Below, one piece after another: positions 3,868 to 25,581 of a DNA stretch of 62,319 nt; the first letter of the stretch is position 1, and every line of letters begins with the position of its first letter. The notes beneath the pieces are model-generated. The model saw only the letters and a program-made list of their open reading frames with translations. It made no database searches and was not told the DNA's origin. Both the position numbers and the translations under genes were made by a program. The DNA lies in the NCBI GenBank assembly GCA_016875225.1, contig VGRW01000014.1, positions 1 to 62,319 of the forward strand, written 5' to 3'. Source of the stretch: Deltaproteobacteria bacterium. GTDB taxonomy: Bacteria > Myxococcota_A > UBA9160 > SZUA-336.

Positions 3868-4725
3868 ATGGGCGCCAGGCGCGGACCCGTGTTGGTGACG
3901 GGCGCGAACTCGGGAATCGGGCTCGCGAGCGCGCTTCGCTTCGCGTCGCGCGGCTGGGAGACCTGGGGCACCGTGCGCTCCGAAGCCAAGGCCGACGAGC
4001 TGCGCGCCGCAGCGAGATCGGCGGGCTGCCTCGAGCTCGTGCGCCCGCTTGTGCTCGACGTCTCGGATCACGAACGCGTCGTCGAGCTGTGGAAGGAGCT
4101 GCCCGACTTCTACGCGGTCGTGAACAACGCGGGGTACTCGCAGACCGGCGCCGTCGAGGAGGTCACGGCGGCGCAGGCGCGCGCGCAGCTCCCCGTGAAT
4201 CTGATCGCACCCGCGATCGTCGCGAGCTGCGCGCTGCCGGGAATGCGGCGACTCGGGGGCGGACGGATCGTGATGGTCTCTTCCGTCGCCGGACGCGCCG
4301 CGGTGCTGCCGCTGAACGGCTGGTATCACGCCTCGAAGTTCGGGCTGGAGGCGCTCTCCGACGTGCTTCGCGTCGAGGTCGCGTCGTTCGGGGTCGCGGT
4401 CTCGATCGTCGAGCCGGGCTTCTTCAAGACCGGGATCACCGGTCGCGCGCGAGAGATGGCATCTCGGGGCGCGGAGCACCGCGATTCGAAGTACGCGTCC
4501 GCGTACGAGCGGATGGACGGCTGGATCGCTCTGATCGAGCGCTTCGCTCCGCCCGCCAGCGTGGTCGCGTTCGCGATCGTGTCGGCGGTCGAGAGCCGCT
4601 TCCCGCTGCAGCGCTACGTCGTCGGTCTCGACGCGCTCGCGGCGATCGTCGGCGAGGCGATCGCGCCGCGCCGGCTGACCGACCTGGCCATGCGCCTGGC
4701 CGCGAATCTCTCGGCGAAGAGCTAG
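3868..4725 (+). CDS. Short-chain dehydrogenase/reductase (classical SDR)
   Basis: A 285-residue NAD(P)-dependent oxidoreductase. The cofactor motif TGANSGIG occupies residues 11-18, NNAG lies near residue 86, the catalytic Ser is in the VSSVAG stretch near 137, and Tyr153/Lys157 form the YxxxK pair within WYHASK. The C-terminal region resembles the retinol/17-beta-hydroxysteroid dehydrogenase branch, which is weak evidence for a lipid or steroid substrate. The ATG at 3868 is chosen because GGAGG lies about eight bases upstream; an in-frame TTG at 3838 has no such site. A TACGAT -10-like hexamer sits at 3845-3850. The next gene is an esterase, consistent with lipid or ester metabolism. Confidence 0.88.
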   Translation: MGARRGPVLVTGANSGIGLASALRFASRGWETWGTVRSEAKADELRAAARSAGCLELVRPLVLDVSDHERVVELWKELPDFYAVVNNAGYSQTGAVEEVTAAQARAQLPVNLIAPAIVASCALPGMRRLGGGRIVMVSSVAGRAAVLPLNGWYHASKFGLEALSDVLRVEVASFGVAVSIVEPGFFKTGITGRAREMASRGAEHRDSKYASAYERMDGWIALIERFAPPASVVAFAIVSAVESRFPLQRYVVGLDALAAIVGEAIAPRRLTDLAMRLAANLSAKS

Positions 4726-19345: not shown

Positions 19346-20599
19346 ATGGGAAACCTGTCCACGCTCGACAGCGGGAGCACCGCCTGGATCCTGACTTCGA
19401 CGGCGCTCGTGCTCTTCATGACGCTTCCGGGCCTCGCGCTCTTCTATGGCGGGCTGGTCCGCACTCAGAACGTCCTCTCGGTGCTGATGCAGTGCTTCGC
19501 GATCACGGCGCTGGTGACTCTGATCTGGCTCGCGTTCGGCTACAGCGTCGCGTTGGGGCCGCCCGGATACGAGGCCGGCGCGATCGGACTTCGCTCCTTC
19601 GTCGGCGGACTCTCGAAGGCGTTTCTGTCCGGGATCGGCGCCGGCACCCTCTGGGGCGCGATCCCCGAGCCGCTCTTCTTCGCCTATCAGCTCAACTTCG
19701 CGATCATCACGCCGGCGCTGATCGTCGGCGCGTTCGCGGAGCGGATGAGCTTCTCGGCGCTGCTGCTCTTCAGCGGTCTCTGGCTGGTCCTCGTGTATCT
19801 CCCGATCTGCCACATGGTCTGGGGCGGTCAGGGCGCGTTCTTCGCCGACCTGGGCGTGTTCGACTTCGCGGGAGGGATCGTCGTGCACATCACCGCAGGG
19901 ATCGCGGCGCTGGTCGCGTGCCTCGTGATCGGCCCGCGACACGGCTTCCCGCGCACAGCCATGCCTCCGCACAACCTGACCATGACCGTGACCGGGACGG
20001 GAATGCTCTGGGTGGGCTGGTTCGGCTTCAATGCCGGCAGCGCGCTGGCGGCGAACGGCACGGCCGCGACCGCGCTGGTTGCGACGCACGTGTCCGCGTC
20101 GGCGGCCGCGCTCACCTGGATGGCGATCGAGTGGGTCCGCTTCGGACGCCCCTCGGTACTCGGTCTGGCGACCGGCGCGGTCGCCGGACTCGCTGCGGTG
20201 ACTCCCGCCTCGGGCTTCGTGGGGCCGGCCGGCGCGCTCGTGATCGGCACCGTGGCTGCGGCCATCTGCTGGTACGCCTCGACCGCGGTGAAGCGGCGCT
20301 TCGGCTACGACGACTCACTGGACGTCTTCGGCGTCCACGGCGTCGGGGGATTCCTCGGCACCGTCCTGGTGGCGGTCTTCGCCTCGGACGTCTTCGGCGG
20401 GAATCAGGCCGGGCTCGCGATCGGACGTCAGCTCGCCGTCCAGCTCGGCGCCGCGGTCTTCACGGTCGTGTACTCCGCCGGAGTCACCTGGGGGATCCTG
20501 CGCGCGGTTGCGGCGCTGACCGAGCTACGCGTCGACGATGCCCAGGAACGGCGCGGACTCGACATCTCGATCCACGGCGAAGAGGGCTACCACCTCTAG
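19346..20599 (+). CDS. amt: Ammonium transporter (Amt/MEP/Rh family)
   Basis: A 417-residue inner-membrane channel conducting ammonia/ammonium, and in many members methylammonium. Eleven hydrophobic helices are visible. The pore histidines should be in GGIVVHITAG and FGVHGVGGFLGT, and the AERMSF and FxYQLxFAIITPALI signatures are present. GGGAG lies about eight bases before the ATG at 19346. No GlnK gene lies next to it. It converges on the amine dehydrogenase operon with a gap of only four bases; that enzyme releases ammonia, so the proximity may be functional. Confidence 0.96.
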   Translation: MGNLSTLDSGSTAWILTSTALVLFMTLPGLALFYGGLVRTQNVLSVLMQCFAITALVTLIWLAFGYSVALGPPGYEAGAIGLRSFVGGLSKAFLSGIGAGTLWGAIPEPLFFAYQLNFAIITPALIVGAFAERMSFSALLLFSGLWLVLVYLPICHMVWGGQGAFFADLGVFDFAGGIVVHITAGIAALVACLVIGPRHGFPRTAMPPHNLTMTVTGTGMLWVGWFGFNAGSALAANGTAATALVATHVSASAAALTWMAIEWVRFGRPSVLGLATGAVAGLAAVTPASGFVGPAGALVIGTVAAAICWYASTAVKRRFGYDDSLDVFGVHGVGGFLGTVLVAVFASDVFGGNQAGLAIGRQLAVQLGAAVFTVVYSAGVTWGILRAVAALTELRVDDAQERRGLDISIHGEEGYHL

Positions 20600-20603
20600 G
20601 CGC

Positions 20604-21152
20604 TCAGGACTTCGTCGCCTGGCCGATCACGATCGCGGTCGAGCAGTTGTAGACGGTGCTCTCGGCGGCGAGACACCAGTTGATGTCGTTCGAGCGCGGC
20701 GTGATGTACGCCGGCTTGTCGCCCTCGTTTCGGTTGCAGATGCAGCGGCCGCAGAAGTCCTTTCCGCAGCAGTCGTTGTAGCTGATCACGTAGTCCTTTC
20801 CGTCGGCCGGGTTCCGGCAGGTGCCGATCCAGGTGACCGGCGACATCTGCGTGCCGGGCGGACAGGCGGTCTGGCTGCCGCCGCAGCAGCTGCACAGAAA
20901 GCCGTCGATCGCGCAGTGGCGCCAGTACTCGCAGCTCGCGGGGTCCGCGAGCGCTCCGCCGATTCCGGCATCGCTCGGCGCGGGAACGCGCACGCCCGAT
21001 CCCGCGTCCGCGCGCGCCCGCGAGACGGGAAGCAGCGGAAGCGCCGCCCCGCCGACCAGCGCCGTGCCCAGCCGAGCCAGAAAGCTGCGCCGCGAGATCC
21101 GGCGCGCGGCGCGCCGCGCGGAGCGCTCGAGCGCCTGTTCGACCCAGCTCAT
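20604..21152 (-). CDS. mauA: TTQ amine dehydrogenase light chain (MauA/AauA, aromatic-amine type)
   Basis: The 182-residue small subunit of a periplasmic quinoprotein that oxidises primary amines to aldehydes and ammonia. Residues 18-40 form a twin-arginine signal (RISRRSFLARLG plus hydrophobic core), as required for folded export. The two tryptophans that form tryptophan tryptophylquinone align as Trp108 (TWIGTC) and Trp159 (NDINWC); the aspartates of AIDG and SYNDCC are also kept. Fourteen cysteines are present: the twelve that form the six canonical disulfides plus Cys90 and Cys134. The FLCSCCGG segment and the extra pair match my memory of Alcaligenes aromatic amine dehydrogenase better than Paracoccus methylamine dehydrogenase. 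It ends the operon and is coupled to mauD (ATGA). Confidence 0.95.
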   Translation of the reverse strand: MSWVEQALERSARRAARRISRRSFLARLGTALVGGAALPLLPVSRARADAGSGVRVPAPSDAGIGGALADPASCEYWRHCAIDGFLCSCCGGSQTACPPGTQMSPVTWIGTCRNPADGKDYVISYNDCCGKDFCGRCICNRNEGDKPAYITPRSNDINWCLAAESTVYNCSTAIVIGQATKS

Positions 21153-21754
21153 CGCGACCCTCCCGATCTCGAAAGATATTCCTGGATCGAGGCCACCCCG
21201 CGATCCATCGCCTCGAACAAGCTCTCCAGGTGCTCGCGCGAGTTCACCAGCCCCTTCGCGCGCACGATCCCGCGCGCGTCCCAGAGCACCGCGTGCGGGA
21301 GCTTGCCGACCTGGTGCGCGAGTCCGAGCTCGGTCGAGACGACGTAAGGCCAGGGCTCGAGCCCGTGCGCGCGCGCAAACCCGGCGTGGTCCTCGGCCAG
21401 GCCGTCGCTGGCGAAGACGAGCCGCGCGATTGCCGACTCGCGGAGCGCGAGCGACTTCGCCGCCGGCAGCAGCGTCTTGCAGACCGGACAGCTCGGCGAG
21501 ACGAACAGCAGCAGCGTCGAGCGGCGCTCGGGATCGTCGCCGCCGAGCTCGATCGCGCGGCCGAAGACGTCCGCGAGATCGAAGCGCGGCGCGGCCTCGC
21601 CCACCTTCGGTCCGCCCGCGAGCAGCAGCGCTCCCGCCGGCGCGACGCGCTCGTAGAGCACGCCGATCTGCCGCACGAGCGCGAAGACGACCGCCGCCAG
21701 CGCCAGCACCGCGACCCAGAGCAGCAGGTTCGAGATCAGCAGCGCCTGCTCCAT
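21149..21754 (-). CDS. mauD: Amine dehydrogenase accessory thioredoxin-like protein MauD/AauD
   Basis: A 201-residue membrane-anchored disulfide oxidoreductase or isomerase needed to form the disulfides of the light chain. One hydrophobic helix at about residues 5-28 anchors a periplasmic thioredoxin fold; the active site is CPVC in SPSCPVCKTLLP, and a cis-proline segment (GKLPHAVLWD) follows. Genes upstream and downstream overlap it by 1 and 4 bases, so translation is coupled in mauB-mauE-mauD-mauA. Size and position are as in known mau and aau clusters. Confidence 0.93.
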   Translation of the reverse strand: MEQALLISNLLLWVAVLALAAVVFALVRQIGVLYERVAPAGALLLAGGPKVGEAAPRFDLADVFGRAIELGGDDPERRSTLLLFVSPSCPVCKTLLPAAKSLALRESAIARLVFASDGLAEDHAGFARAHGLEPWPYVVSTELGLAHQVGKLPHAVLWDARGIVRAKGLVNSREHLESLFEAMDRGVASIQEYLSRSGGSR

Positions 21755-22290
21755 CACGCGCCCCGGAGCGCGCGCAGGCGCGGCGCGTTCGCCAGCAGCG
21801 TGTTCGTGCTCGCGTACAGAAGCGAGCCAGCCGCGACCGCAGCGCAGATCGCGACGGCGTCGAGCCAGGTCAGGCCGCGAGCCCCCGCGGGAAGCGCGGC
21901 GGCCAGCGCGATCGCGACGAGAGCGAGGTTGCGCGCGAGAAGACCCGCCGAGAGCGGCTGGCGCGCGGCCGGCCCGAAGCAGCCGCAGTCGATCTCGCGC
22001 AGGCCGCGGGCGAGACCCGAGGCGATCGCGGCGCTGTAGAGCGCGAGCAGGAGCGCAGCCGGGACCGCGCCGCGCTCGGAGGCGACGACGAGGATCGCGA
22101 CGCCGAGCTCGGCGACGATCAGCGCGACGACGGCGGGGCCGTGTGACCACTCGGGCGCGAGCCGGTAGCCGGCGAGCGCCGCACGAAACGCGCTCGGATC
22201 GCGGAGCTTGTGCGCCGCGGCGGTCGCGAACAGCAGCGCGAGCCCGAGGCGCGCGGCGAGCGCGAGCGCGGGGTCGACGGCTAGCGCCAC
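21754..22290 (-). CDS. mauE: Amine dehydrogenase accessory membrane protein MauE/AauE
   Basis: A 178-residue inner-membrane protein with four to five helices, in the DoxX/VKOR-like superfamily, working with MauD in maturation of the light chain. The motif DCGCFGP after the third helix is characteristic, with the CxC pair facing the redox partner. The GTG at 22290 overlaps the 3' end of mauB by ten bases (GTGGCGCTAG), and its stop shares a base with the mauD ATG. The upstream frame is open through mauB but reads as a shadow. Confidence 0.9.
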   Translation of the reverse strand: MALAVDPALALAARLGLALLFATAAAHKLRDPSAFRAALAGYRLAPEWSHGPAVVALIVAELGVAILVVASERGAVPAALLLALYSAAIASGLARGLREIDCGCFGPAARQPLSAGLLARNLALVAIALAAALPAGARGLTWLDAVAICAAVAAGSLLYASTNTLLANAPRLRALRGA

Positions 22291-23501
22291 GGCGCCGAGA
22301 TCATGCCGGGAAAGAACCCGACGTCGTCGACGTTGCGCAGGAACTTGCCCGAGATCGCGTCGTGCACGCCCAGCGTACCGGCCTCCTGCGACACCAGAAT
22401 GAGTCGGGGCTCGGCATCCTGGGTCACCTCGATCCGATCGGCTCCGGGGTTGGGCACCAGGGTCTCGAGCAGCCACGCGCCGACTCCCCCCGCCTCCAGC
22501 CCCATCCGCGCGGCCAGGAAGGCGCCGACGAGATTTCCGATCGAGACCGTGTGCACGCGCTCGCGCCGCGCGACGTCGTAGATCGCGACCTCCGTGCCAG
22601 GCTCCTTGTGCTCGTCCGGTCCGCCCTGGTGGACCAGCGCGTAGAGCCGCCCGGTCGCCTCGTGCAGAGCGAGCGGCTGCACGCCGCCGAAGCGCCAGCC
22701 GGCCTCGCGCTCTCCGGCGTTGAAGAGCGACCAGGGCGCGGCGAAGCGCGGCGATTCGCCCGCGAGATCGACCTCGTGCACGAAGCCCTCGAACGAGACG
22801 AAGAAAAGGCTCGATCCCCGGCGCGCCGGCTTCTCGATCAGCGGATCCTTCTCCGGGTCGAAGAAGACCTCGCTGCGCACTCGGCCGGCCTCGGCACCGC
22901 GCTCGTCGAGCGTGATCAGCAGCAGCGTCCCGTCCGCGCAGAGCATCGCCACACGCCGATCCCCGGCCGCGTAGACCAGACCGCATCCCGCCGCCTCGAT
23001 CTCGCCCGCGAAGCGGCGCTCACGGGTGTCGATCACCGACACCGACGTAGCGGGCGTCAGATTGAAGACGGCCGCGAAGCGGCCGTCGCCGAGCAGCGCG
23101 GCCATTCCCGCGCCGTGGACCACGTCCGCGCGCTTGGGCGGAATCACCACCTCTCCGGTCGGCGCCAGCGTCTTCGGATCGTAGACCGTGAGCAGGTCCG
23201 TCCGCGTGCCGCGGCTGCCGCGGCTGTAGTAGGTCTCGGGCAGGTAGATCGCGCCGCCCGCGGGATCGACCAACGGCGCGATCGGGCCGACGTTGGACGA
23301 GAGCATGCCGAGAAACTCGCCGCTGTCGGCGTCGAAGAGCGCCGCGCGCCGCAGCAGCAGGTCCGACACGAAGACCCAGTGCGGTCGCGGCTCCGGCAGG
23401 GTCGCGACCTGACCGACCACCTCCGGCACGAAGTCCGCGCGTGCCATGCCGGCGGCAGAGAGAAGCGCGGCCAGTGCCGCAGCGATCGCCCTTGTGGTCA
23501 C
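22281..23501 (-). CDS. mauB: TTQ amine dehydrogenase heavy chain (MauB/AauB)
   Basis: The 406-residue large subunit, a seven-bladed beta-propeller that holds the TTQ light chain in the periplasmic heterotetramer. A cleavable signal peptide ends near ARA-DFVPE (residues 1-22). Family segments include HWVFVSD near the first blade, SRGxRGTRTDLLTVYDP, and the C-terminal PxxI/V-rich closing blade ending in SAPWR. The start is a GTG at 23501; an ATG 14 bases upstream is out of frame. A possible internal promoter hexamer, TAGAGT on the minus strand, lies at 23522-23527. Confidence 0.95.
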   Translation of the reverse strand: MTTRAIAAALAALLSAAGMARADFVPEVVGQVATLPEPRPHWVFVSDLLLRRAALFDADSGEFLGMLSSNVGPIAPLVDPAGGAIYLPETYYSRGSRGTRTDLLTVYDPKTLAPTGEVVIPPKRADVVHGAGMAALLGDGRFAAVFNLTPATSVSVIDTRERRFAGEIEAAGCGLVYAAGDRRVAMLCADGTLLLITLDERGAEAGRVRSEVFFDPEKDPLIEKPARRGSSLFFVSFEGFVHEVDLAGESPRFAAPWSLFNAGEREAGWRFGGVQPLALHEATGRLYALVHQGGPDEHKEPGTEVAIYDVARRERVHTVSIGNLVGAFLAARMGLEAGGVGAWLLETLVPNPGADRIEVTQDAEPRLILVSQEAGTLGVHDAISGKFLRNVDDVGFFPGMISAPWR

Positions 23502-23565
23502 CGTCCGCCCCTCATGGCGCCACTCTACCCGGTTCGATCGCGCCGGGAAACGCCGGAGGGCCGCG

Positions 23566-24663
23566 CTACTCCGGCATCAGCTTGCCGAGCTCGTCGAAGC
23601 GCGCGAGGTCGGTGCTCGTGAACGTCTCGAGCAGGGCGACCAGATCGGCCTTCTCCTGTGCGGTGAGACCCAGCGGGCGCATGTTCGGATCGAGCCAGGG
23701 GTTCTTGTTTCCGCCCCGGTCGTAGTACTCGATCACCTCGGCCAGCGTCTCCTCGCTGCCGTCGTGCATGTAGGGCGCGGTGAGCGCGATGTTGCGCAGA
23801 TGGGGGGTCTTGAACGCGCCGAGATCCTGCGGATTGCGGCTCACCGCGAAGCGCCCCAGCTCCTCGACTCCAGGGGCGTTGGCGAGCTTCTCGAAGTCCG
23901 CGGGGCGCTGCGCGAGCTGTTTCGCGAGCGCCAGGAACTCGGTCGGCTTCGCGGCCACGCCGAGGTTGTGGTACTTGCCGTCGCTGAAGAGCGGAGACGC
24001 CGGCACGTGCGCGTGGCACGCGACGCACAGAGCCTTGCCGTTGTAGAGCACCCAGCCGCGCTTGGCGGAGTCCGAGATCGCCGTCGCGTCGCCGCCCAGG
24101 AAGCGGTCGATCGGCGCGTCGAGCGAGATCAGCGTCCGCTCGAAGCTCGCCAGCGCCTTTCCGATCCGATCGATCGTCACCTTCGGATCGCCGAAGGCCT
24201 TCTGGAACAGCGGCGGATACTCGGCCAGGGCCGCGAGTTTCCGTTCCACCGCCGGATGGTCCGGCATCGCCATCTCGACCGGATTGATGATCGGCCCCAC
24301 TGCCTGCGCCTCGAGCGAGGGAGCCCGCCCGTCCCAGAACTGCTCCGGGAGGAAGGCTGCGTTCATCACCGTCGGCGCGTTGCGATTGCCCCGGCCCCCA
24401 GCCACGCCGTCCGACACCGGCTTGTGCTCCGCGAACCCGGTGCGCGGATCGTGGCAGGTCGCGCAGGAGATCGTGTCGTCCTTCGAGAGTCGCGAATCGA
24501 AGTAGAGCTTCTTGCCGAGCTCGACCCCGGCTGCGGTGAGTGGGTTGTCGGCGGGAACCTGGGGAGGCGTGACTCCCTTCGGAACGGAAATCACGACCTC
24601 GTCTGCGCGGGCGTCGCAGAGAGATCCGAGGAGAAATCCGAGCGTGACGAGTGCGATCTTCAT
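23566..24663 (-). CDS. mauG: Dihaem cytochrome c peroxidase-family protein, MauG-like
   Basis: A 365-residue periplasmic dihaem protein, the probable maturation enzyme that completes TTQ in the light chain. Residues 1-20 are a signal peptide ending DARA. Haem sites are CATCH at 67-71 and CVACH at 213-217, with the bridging-position tryptophan Trp110 in FWDGRA. Family segments LRNIALTAPYMHDGS and ADLVALLETF follow. Position directly upstream of mauB argues for MauG rather than a detoxifying peroxidase, but the axial ligand that separates them (Tyr in MauG, Met or His in peroxidases) cannot be assigned by eye. The ATG at 24663 is favoured by a promoter whose start point falls on it. Confidence 0.9.
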   Translation of the reverse strand: MKIALVTLGFLLGSLCDARADEVVISVPKGVTPPQVPADNPLTAAGVELGKKLYFDSRLSKDDTISCATCHDPRTGFAEHKPVSDGVAGGRGNRNAPTVMNAAFLPEQFWDGRAPSLEAQAVGPIINPVEMAMPDHPAVERKLAALAEYPPLFQKAFGDPKVTIDRIGKALASFERTLISLDAPIDRFLGGDATAISDSAKRGWVLYNGKALCVACHAHVPASPLFSDGKYHNLGVAAKPTEFLALAKQLAQRPADFEKLANAPGVEELGRFAVSRNPQDLGAFKTPHLRNIALTAPYMHDGSEETLAEVIEYYDRGGNKNPWLDPNMRPLGLTAQEKADLVALLETFTSTDLARFDELGKLMPE

Positions 24664-24670
24664 TCCGACA

Positions 24671-24699
24671 TCTCTACGTTCGAGCCGGAACGCTGTCAA
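24671..24699 (-). promoter_or_regulatory. Sigma-70-type promoter of the mauG-B-E-D-A operon
   Basis: On the minus strand a perfect TTGACA (24699-24694) is followed after 17 bases by TAGAGA (24676-24671), and the mauG ATG begins seven bases later at 24663. The predicted start point coincides with the start codon, so the mRNA would be leaderless. It is the best -35 hexamer seen in the window and separates the amine dehydrogenase genes from the upstream hydrolase, hydratase and oxidoreductase genes. Confidence 0.6.
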
Positions 24700-24711: not shown

Positions 24712-25581
24712 TCACCCTCGACACGAGATCACACGCTCCGCGTAGCCGCGCAGCGCGTCGATCTTCTGCTGCAGCGTCTGCACGTCCTTCTCGTAGACGT
24801 TGCGGAACCCGACGATCACGTCGGTCACGCCGAGATCCTCGAGCCGGCGGATGCCGTCCGGCGTGTACGCGTCGAGCGAGATCGCGTGCACCTCGAAGGG
24901 CTCGCGCTCGCGGCCGTACTCGCGGCGGAGCGAGCGGAGCCGGCCGAGCAGGCGCGCGAGGGTCCCGGCGTCGCCGCCGGCGTGCATCCAGCCGTCGCCG
25001 AGCCGGGCCGCGCGGCGCAGCGCGGGCTCGGCATGGCCTCCGATCAGGAACGGGATCGGCCGCGTCGGGGCCGGCGTCTGCTTCACGCTCGGAATCGTGT
25101 AGTGCGCGCCGTGGTACGAGAAGTAGTCGCCGCGCGAGAGCCCGCGGATGATCTCGATCATCTCGTCCATTCGCGCGCCGCGCGTCGCCCAGTCGGTGCC
25201 GGTGATCTCGAAGTCCTCCGGCCAGGGGCTGAGCCCCATGCCGAAGCCGAAGCGGTTCTGCGTCAGCACCGCGACCGAGCAGGCGGACTTCGCGACCAGC
25301 ACCGGGTGCCGGATCGGCAGCTTCACGACGAACGTGGTGAAGCGAAGGGTGCGAGTCACCGCGCCCATCGCCGGGATCAGCGAGAAAGGGTCGAGGAACG
25401 GCTTGTCTTCGAGAAACTCGCGCCGGCCGTCCGGCGTGTATGGATAGCTCGAGTCCGACACTTCCGGGTAGCAGAGGCTGTCGGGAACCACGAAGGAGTT
25501 CCAGCCAGCCTCCTCCGCCGCGATCGCGAGCGGAAGATACTGACTCGGATCGCACATGGACTCGGCGTACGAGAAACGCAC
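24712..25581 (-). CDS. Luciferase-like (LLM class) flavin or F420-dependent oxidoreductase
   Basis: A 289-residue TIM-barrel oxidoreductase of the bacterial luciferase superfamily, probably reducing or oxygenating a substrate with FMNH2 or F420H2. The opening RFSYAESMCDPSQYLPLAIAAEEAG, the FGFGMGLSPWPEDFE segment and GGHAEPALRRAARLGDGWM near 190-210 are family landmarks. The start is a GTG at 25581, ten bases after the hydratase stop, with GAGG in between; the longer upstream frame is not family-like. The gene is probably co-transcribed with the hydratase. The substrate is unknown. Confidence 0.85.
   Translation of the reverse strand: MRFSYAESMCDPSQYLPLAIAAEEAGWNSFVVPDSLCYPEVSDSSYPYTPDGRREFLEDKPFLDPFSLIPAMGAVTRTLRFTTFVVKLPIRHPVLVAKSACSVAVLTQNRFGFGMGLSPWPEDFEITGTDWATRGARMDEMIEIIRGLSRGDYFSYHGAHYTIPSVKQTPAPTRPIPFLIGGHAEPALRRAARLGDGWMHAGGDAGTLARLLGRLRSLRREYGREREPFEVHAISLDAYTPDGIRRLEDLGVTDVIVGFRNVYEKDVQTLQQKIDALRGYAERVISCRG

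Follow-up and report, generated by a model that had tools for sequence, protein, structure and literature searches.

A predicted amine dehydrogenase of the aromatic amine dehydrogenase branch and its constant small cytochrome in an uncultured deltaproteobacterial class

The window analyzed here is a 62,319-nucleotide stretch of contig VGRW01000014.1 from a Deltaproteobacteria bacterium (GCA_016875225.1; 182 contigs, 97.8% complete, 2.5% contamination). On its minus strand, a diheme CCP/MauG family gene (24663–23566; Pfam CCP_MauG, 5e-57) begins at an ATG, with the TTG at 24699 lying upstream of this start, and is followed co-directionally after 65 nucleotides by a mauB/aauB-like heavy chain gene (23501–22281; Pfam Me-amine-dh_H, 3.9e-42), mauE encoding a membrane protein (22290–21754; Pfam MauE, 6e-25), mauD encoding a thioredoxin-like protein with a CPVC motif (21754–21149; passing NCBIfam TIGR02661), and a mauA/aauA-like gene encoding a 182-residue light chain with a Tat-like RRSFL signal (21152–20604; Pfam Me-amine-dh_L, 1.6e-49). 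Genes overlap at every junction from mauB to mauA, including the mauE GTG start over the mauB stop and a 4-nucleotide overlap between mauD and mauA. By Pfam, both subunits of a TTQ-dehydrogenase are thus encoded together, and the presence of the light chain in 57 of the 91 genomes of the class indicates that the locus is not a chance assembly. A luciferase-like monooxygenase gene (24712–25581, minus strand) lies directly upstream of the diheme gene and co-directional with it, a putative member of the system at most, and a MaoC-like gene is found upstream on the strand shared by the luciferase-like and mau genes. On the other side, an ammonium transporter (Amt) gene (19346–20599, plus strand) converges on the operon and ends 5 nucleotides from mauA, leaving no space for the cytochrome gene that relatives carry at this position.

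A first-pass annotation had described the operon as mauG, mauB, mauE, mauD and mauA. All five gene families are present by Pfam and NCBIfam (minus strand, 24663–20604), but operons of this kind do not normally include the mauG-like gene: the operons of the aromatic amine dehydrogenase (AADH) branch that we compared are without it, and its nearest homologs belong to another operon. The cluster is indeed without amicyanin, mauF, mauJ, mauM and mauN, as that annotation stated, and among the compared loci those genes occur only in clusters of the methylamine dehydrogenase (MADH) type. The B-E-D-A order of the window matches that of the A. faecalis aau cluster, aauBEDA, which is not known to carry mauG, mauF, mauJ, mauM or mauN. 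The window differs from that cluster in its adjacent MauG-like gene and in having no cytochrome gene downstream. With the MADH cluster of Paracoccus denitrificans (mauFBEDACJGMN), the window has in common both subunit families, MauE, MauD, the TTQ tryptophan pair and a diheme gene in the operon; Ile107, the Phe55 loop, amicyanin, mauF and mauJ of Paracoccus have no counterpart in the window. Variant gene orders were seen at other loci (L009, L010, L049, L051, L052, L084 and L061, L073, L087), either with mauB beside mauA and no mauE or mauD detected in that stretch, or with mauE–mauD ahead of mauB.

The light chain contains exactly 14 cysteines, all within the mature part (74, 80, 87, 89, 90, 97, 112, 128, 129, 134, 137, 139, 160 and 170). 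It shares this number with A. faecalis AADH (AauAB; PDB 2AGL/2AGY), together with the TTQ tryptophan pair (Trp108 and Trp159), the catalytic aspartate base (Asp127) and an asparagine (Asn158) preceding the second TTQ tryptophan, where MADH has Ile107. Two sequence features singled out in the first-pass annotation are confirmed by alignment: Cys90 and Cys134 are extra relative to Paracoccus MADH, both being serine in the Paracoccus and Methylobacterium enzymes, and the FLCSCCGG stretch likened to Alcaligenes AADH is identical in 2AGL. Cysteine number was nonetheless ruled out as a marker of AADH, since an MADH-type light chain on an Indioceanicola profundi plasmid (L108, 7824–8363), whose cluster includes mauF, mauJ and a mauG-like gene and whose pocket residues are those of MADH, also has 14, and the aau-type light chains of P. 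aeruginosa, Chimaeribacter and Paracoccus SMMA_5 have 10; used alone, the count misclassifies these enzymes. Within the class, the equivalents of Cys87 and Cys170 are lost jointly, to serine or alanine, in a subclade (L007, L008, L014, L045–L047, L049, L055, L056 and others), a covarying loss of a disulfide, and further cysteines are lost in the light chains of L048, L051, L052 and L071. The window light chain carries Ser171 at the site of MADH Thr122 and AADH Thr172, a residue common to about half of the branch.

To place the enzyme within its family, we compared both chains with solved structures and constructed heavy- and light-chain trees. AADH is the best PDB match of each chain. Three MADH-type rows split from all other rows with an SH-aLRT support of 100 in both trees, and the window falls among the others with rows of its class, so that the light chain, and likewise the heavy chain, lies outside the MADH clade, as the proposed assignment to the AADH side implied. 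A. faecalis AADH groups with Pseudomonadota rows in both trees (support 93–94); the window sits elsewhere, outside this clade of characterized AADH, in a weakly supported position inside the class clade. In the heavy chain, the loop at the site of MADH Phe55 and AADH Phe97, with Phe55 mapped by the Paracoccus numbering, lacks five residues relative to AADH and has lost the phenylalanine site, a deletion common to the 48-row clade of the window; deeper rows of the same class retain the long loop. This shortened gate loop gives a pocket that matches neither MADH nor AADH. The initial call of an aromatic-amine rather than a methylamine enzyme is therefore partly supported: it is right as to the branch, but the pocket matches neither enzyme and the implied aromatic substrate is too specific.

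These data bear on two more familiar identities for the enzyme. A methylamine dehydrogenase serving methylotrophy is highly improbable, although the NCBIfam MADH heavy- and light-chain models are the sole NCBIfam matches of the two chains: both equivalog cut-offs are missed (TIGR02658, 146.7 against 454 bits; TIGR02659, 176.6 against 197 bits), whereas Paracoccus MADH passes both, and the tree position, the asparagine in place of isoleucine before Trp159 and the missing amicyanin and mauF/J/M/N all argue against it. A genome search further found no Fae in the window genome, and across the class Fae occurs in 4 of 57 genomes with the light chain and in 2 of the 34 others, an absence of enrichment that reveals no link between the light chain and methylotrophy. 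If the enzyme were a conventional aromatic amine dehydrogenase with phenethylamine, tyramine and tryptamine as substrates, this would account for the best PDB match, the identical FLCSCCGG stretch and the asparagine before the second TTQ tryptophan; we nevertheless consider this identity doubtful, as neither tree places the enzyme within the A. faecalis clade and the gate loop has lost five residues and with them the Phe55/Phe97 site. Aldehyde dehydrogenase genes lie near the mau operon in several relatives, as expected for a pathway running from amine to aldehyde to acid.

We next examined candidate redox partners. The first-pass annotation had suggested seeking a blue-copper protein or a cytochrome as acceptor. 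No blue-copper protein (PF00127) was found anywhere in the 97.8% complete assembly. A candidate partner cytochrome is present in the genome, unlinked to the operon. This protein belongs to a family of small monoheme cytochromes, here called c2, encoded directly after mauA in almost every AADH-branch locus. Profile searches within the class recovered c2 in each of the 57 genomes that encode the light chain; across 379 genomes of the phylum, c2 occurred in 64 of 64 genomes with the light chain and 1 of 315 without it, the lone exception being a c2 located 27 bases from a contig end. The corresponding Fisher test (p = 2e-72) ignores relatedness and linkage; most of the co-occurrence is operon linkage, and the counts do not account for shared ancestry. 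Seven genera of the class include both states, and in each of them c2 and the light chain are present or absent together. Among plasmid records, c2 lies near the light chain in 15 of 15 AADH-branch cases and 0 of 15 MADH-branch cases. In the window genome, c2 is a lone gene on contig 76 (L169, 3834–4286, plus strand; c2 itself placed at 3945–4271), away from the mau operon, between acyltransferase and short-chain dehydrogenase genes and with matching GC content; the Pfam scan listed the site weakly, and the c2 profile then found c2 there. Only the window genome (G000), whose 182-contig assembly with 2.5% contamination tempers this placement, and one other (G031) keep c2 though it is unlinked. 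In a further genome (G058; L097), no mauB, mauE or mauD was detected next to mauA, and the heme motif of c2 is broken, reading CSAWH, a pattern that fits joint decay of the operon and c2. A cytochrome that is constant yet separable is an unusual feature of the system.

The closest solved relative of c2 by sequence is Thermus thermophilus cytochrome c552 (5e-22), and a predicted model of the c2 of a relative (pLDDT 89) matches the c552 fold with a TM-score of 0.72. Likeness to c552 extends over both halves of the protein, including the C-terminal extension, but c2 is missing the stretch of about 18–20 residues that bears the axial methionine. In c552, a methionine of this loop is the sixth heme ligand. 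Outside CxxCH, the c2 alignment contains no other conserved Met, His or Lys column and hence no conserved replacement ligand. A second c552-like cytochrome encoded in several Pseudomonadota clusters aligns with c552 over its full length and keeps the methionine motif. The apparently open heme of c2 suggests a chemical role in place of plain electron transfer and is the basis for considering this protein as a maturase: c2 may be an electron acceptor or, more speculatively, a TTQ-forming helper of a branch without mauG.

Within this locus, the MauG-like gene is the most atypical component. Its product has the two CxxCH motifs, inter-heme tryptophan and sixth-ligand tyrosine common to MauG/MbnH diheme enzymes (PF03150), and alignment shows equivalents of MauG Trp93, Gln103, Pro107, Glu113 and Tyr294, with alanine at the Trp199 site as in Methylobacterium MauG. 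CCP_MauG proteins with a tyrosine ligand occur without a mau operon (PMC6405878), and the tyrosine alone is thus no proof of a TTQ role. The MauG and MbnH models give the protein equal scores, both below their cut-offs, reaching 239 of 444 bits for TIGR03791. We dropped this equivalog cut-off as a test for MauG because it does not discriminate: the genuine MauG of Paracoccus denitrificans (L102, 9673–10836) scores only 97 bits against the cut-off of 444. The closest homologs of the window protein (57–63% identity, six genomes) lie outside mau operons and include one from a genome without the light chain. They are encoded in a conserved three-gene operon (L143–L148) in which the gene for the MauG-like diheme protein is joined by genes for a Tat-exported metallophosphoesterase-like protein and for a monoheme protein of about 235 amino acids. 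A search of the window genome did not recover the phosphoesterase-like partner. At no other locus of the class does a diheme gene adjoin mau genes. The idea that the MauG-like gene stands in for a missing cytochrome was weakened when the c2 profile located c2 on contig 76. The MauG-like gene, we conclude, probably arrived beside mauB at a later time and lies outside the conserved system.

How TTQ is made at this locus can be read in several ways. The textbook account assigns formation of the TTQ cofactor to MauG, and the adjoining diheme enzyme could act here as MauG does for MADH, making the operon a true hybrid of both systems. The co-directional placement 65 nucleotides ahead of mauB, the retained MauG residues and the missing phosphoesterase partner are consistent with this arrangement, which we nonetheless regard as unlikely given its uniqueness among class loci, the residence of its 57–63% homologs in the phosphoesterase operon, its equal scores against the MauG and MbnH models and the continued presence of c2 in the same genome. 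A reading that falls only somewhat short of even odds in our judgment takes c2 as a plain physiological electron acceptor and assigns TTQ formation to an unrecognized or unlinked enzyme. Amine dehydrogenases usually pass their electrons to small cytochromes or blue-copper proteins, and a single heme in a c552-like fold suits this role; at least one CCP/MauG family protein, moreover, is encoded in 77 of the 91 class genomes. However, loss of the axial methionine loop with no conserved replacement ligand is unusual for an electron carrier, and the methionine-bearing second cytochrome of the Pseudomonadota clusters would be a better fit as acceptor. Nine genomes with the light chain (G007, G011, G028, G030, G036, G037, G054, G066 and G078), several of them incomplete assemblies, yielded no diheme CCP/MauG match, which speaks against a diheme maturase as the general rule. 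We tentatively entertain, at a likelihood below that of the acceptor role, that c2 is itself the oxidase that forms TTQ in the AADH branch, using its open single heme and peroxide as diheme MauG does for MADH.

Taken together, we consider it probable that the locus encodes an AADH-branch amine dehydrogenase that is periplasmic and TTQ-dependent, with c2 as its constant partner and a substrate range unlike that of both studied enzymes. The enzyme would represent a large, unstudied AADH sub-branch that occurs widely in a deltaproteobacterial (Myxococcota) class of uncultured organisms. Judging from their families, MauE and MauD would assist folding of the disulfide-rich light chain, in which TTQ is predicted to form from Trp108 and Trp159; the mature enzyme would then oxidize a primary amine to an aldehyde and ammonia, and the shortened gate loop may give it a range of substrates distinct from those of either studied enzyme. 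The c2 partner, usually encoded right after mauA and here on contig 76, would serve either as acceptor or in peroxide-driven TTQ maturation at its open heme. The serine in place of the catalytic threonine may weigh against this favored explanation, though about half of the branch carries the same residue.

These results show that genes for TTQ amine dehydrogenases are common in an uncultured class (57 of 91 genomes). Automatic annotation would label the enzymes of this class methylamine dehydrogenases, although a role in methylotrophy is disfavored by their pockets and by how rarely Fae occurs. AADH-type clusters are without MauG, and comparison of the loci singles out c2 as the constant small partner, always found with the AADH branch and never with the MADH branch in plasmid records, and devoid of the usual sixth heme ligand. 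If c2 is a maturase, this would account both for TTQ formation in AADH-type enzymes without mauG and for the constant retention of c2 alongside a variable likely acceptor; this odd small heme protein may supply the missing help in active-site assembly.
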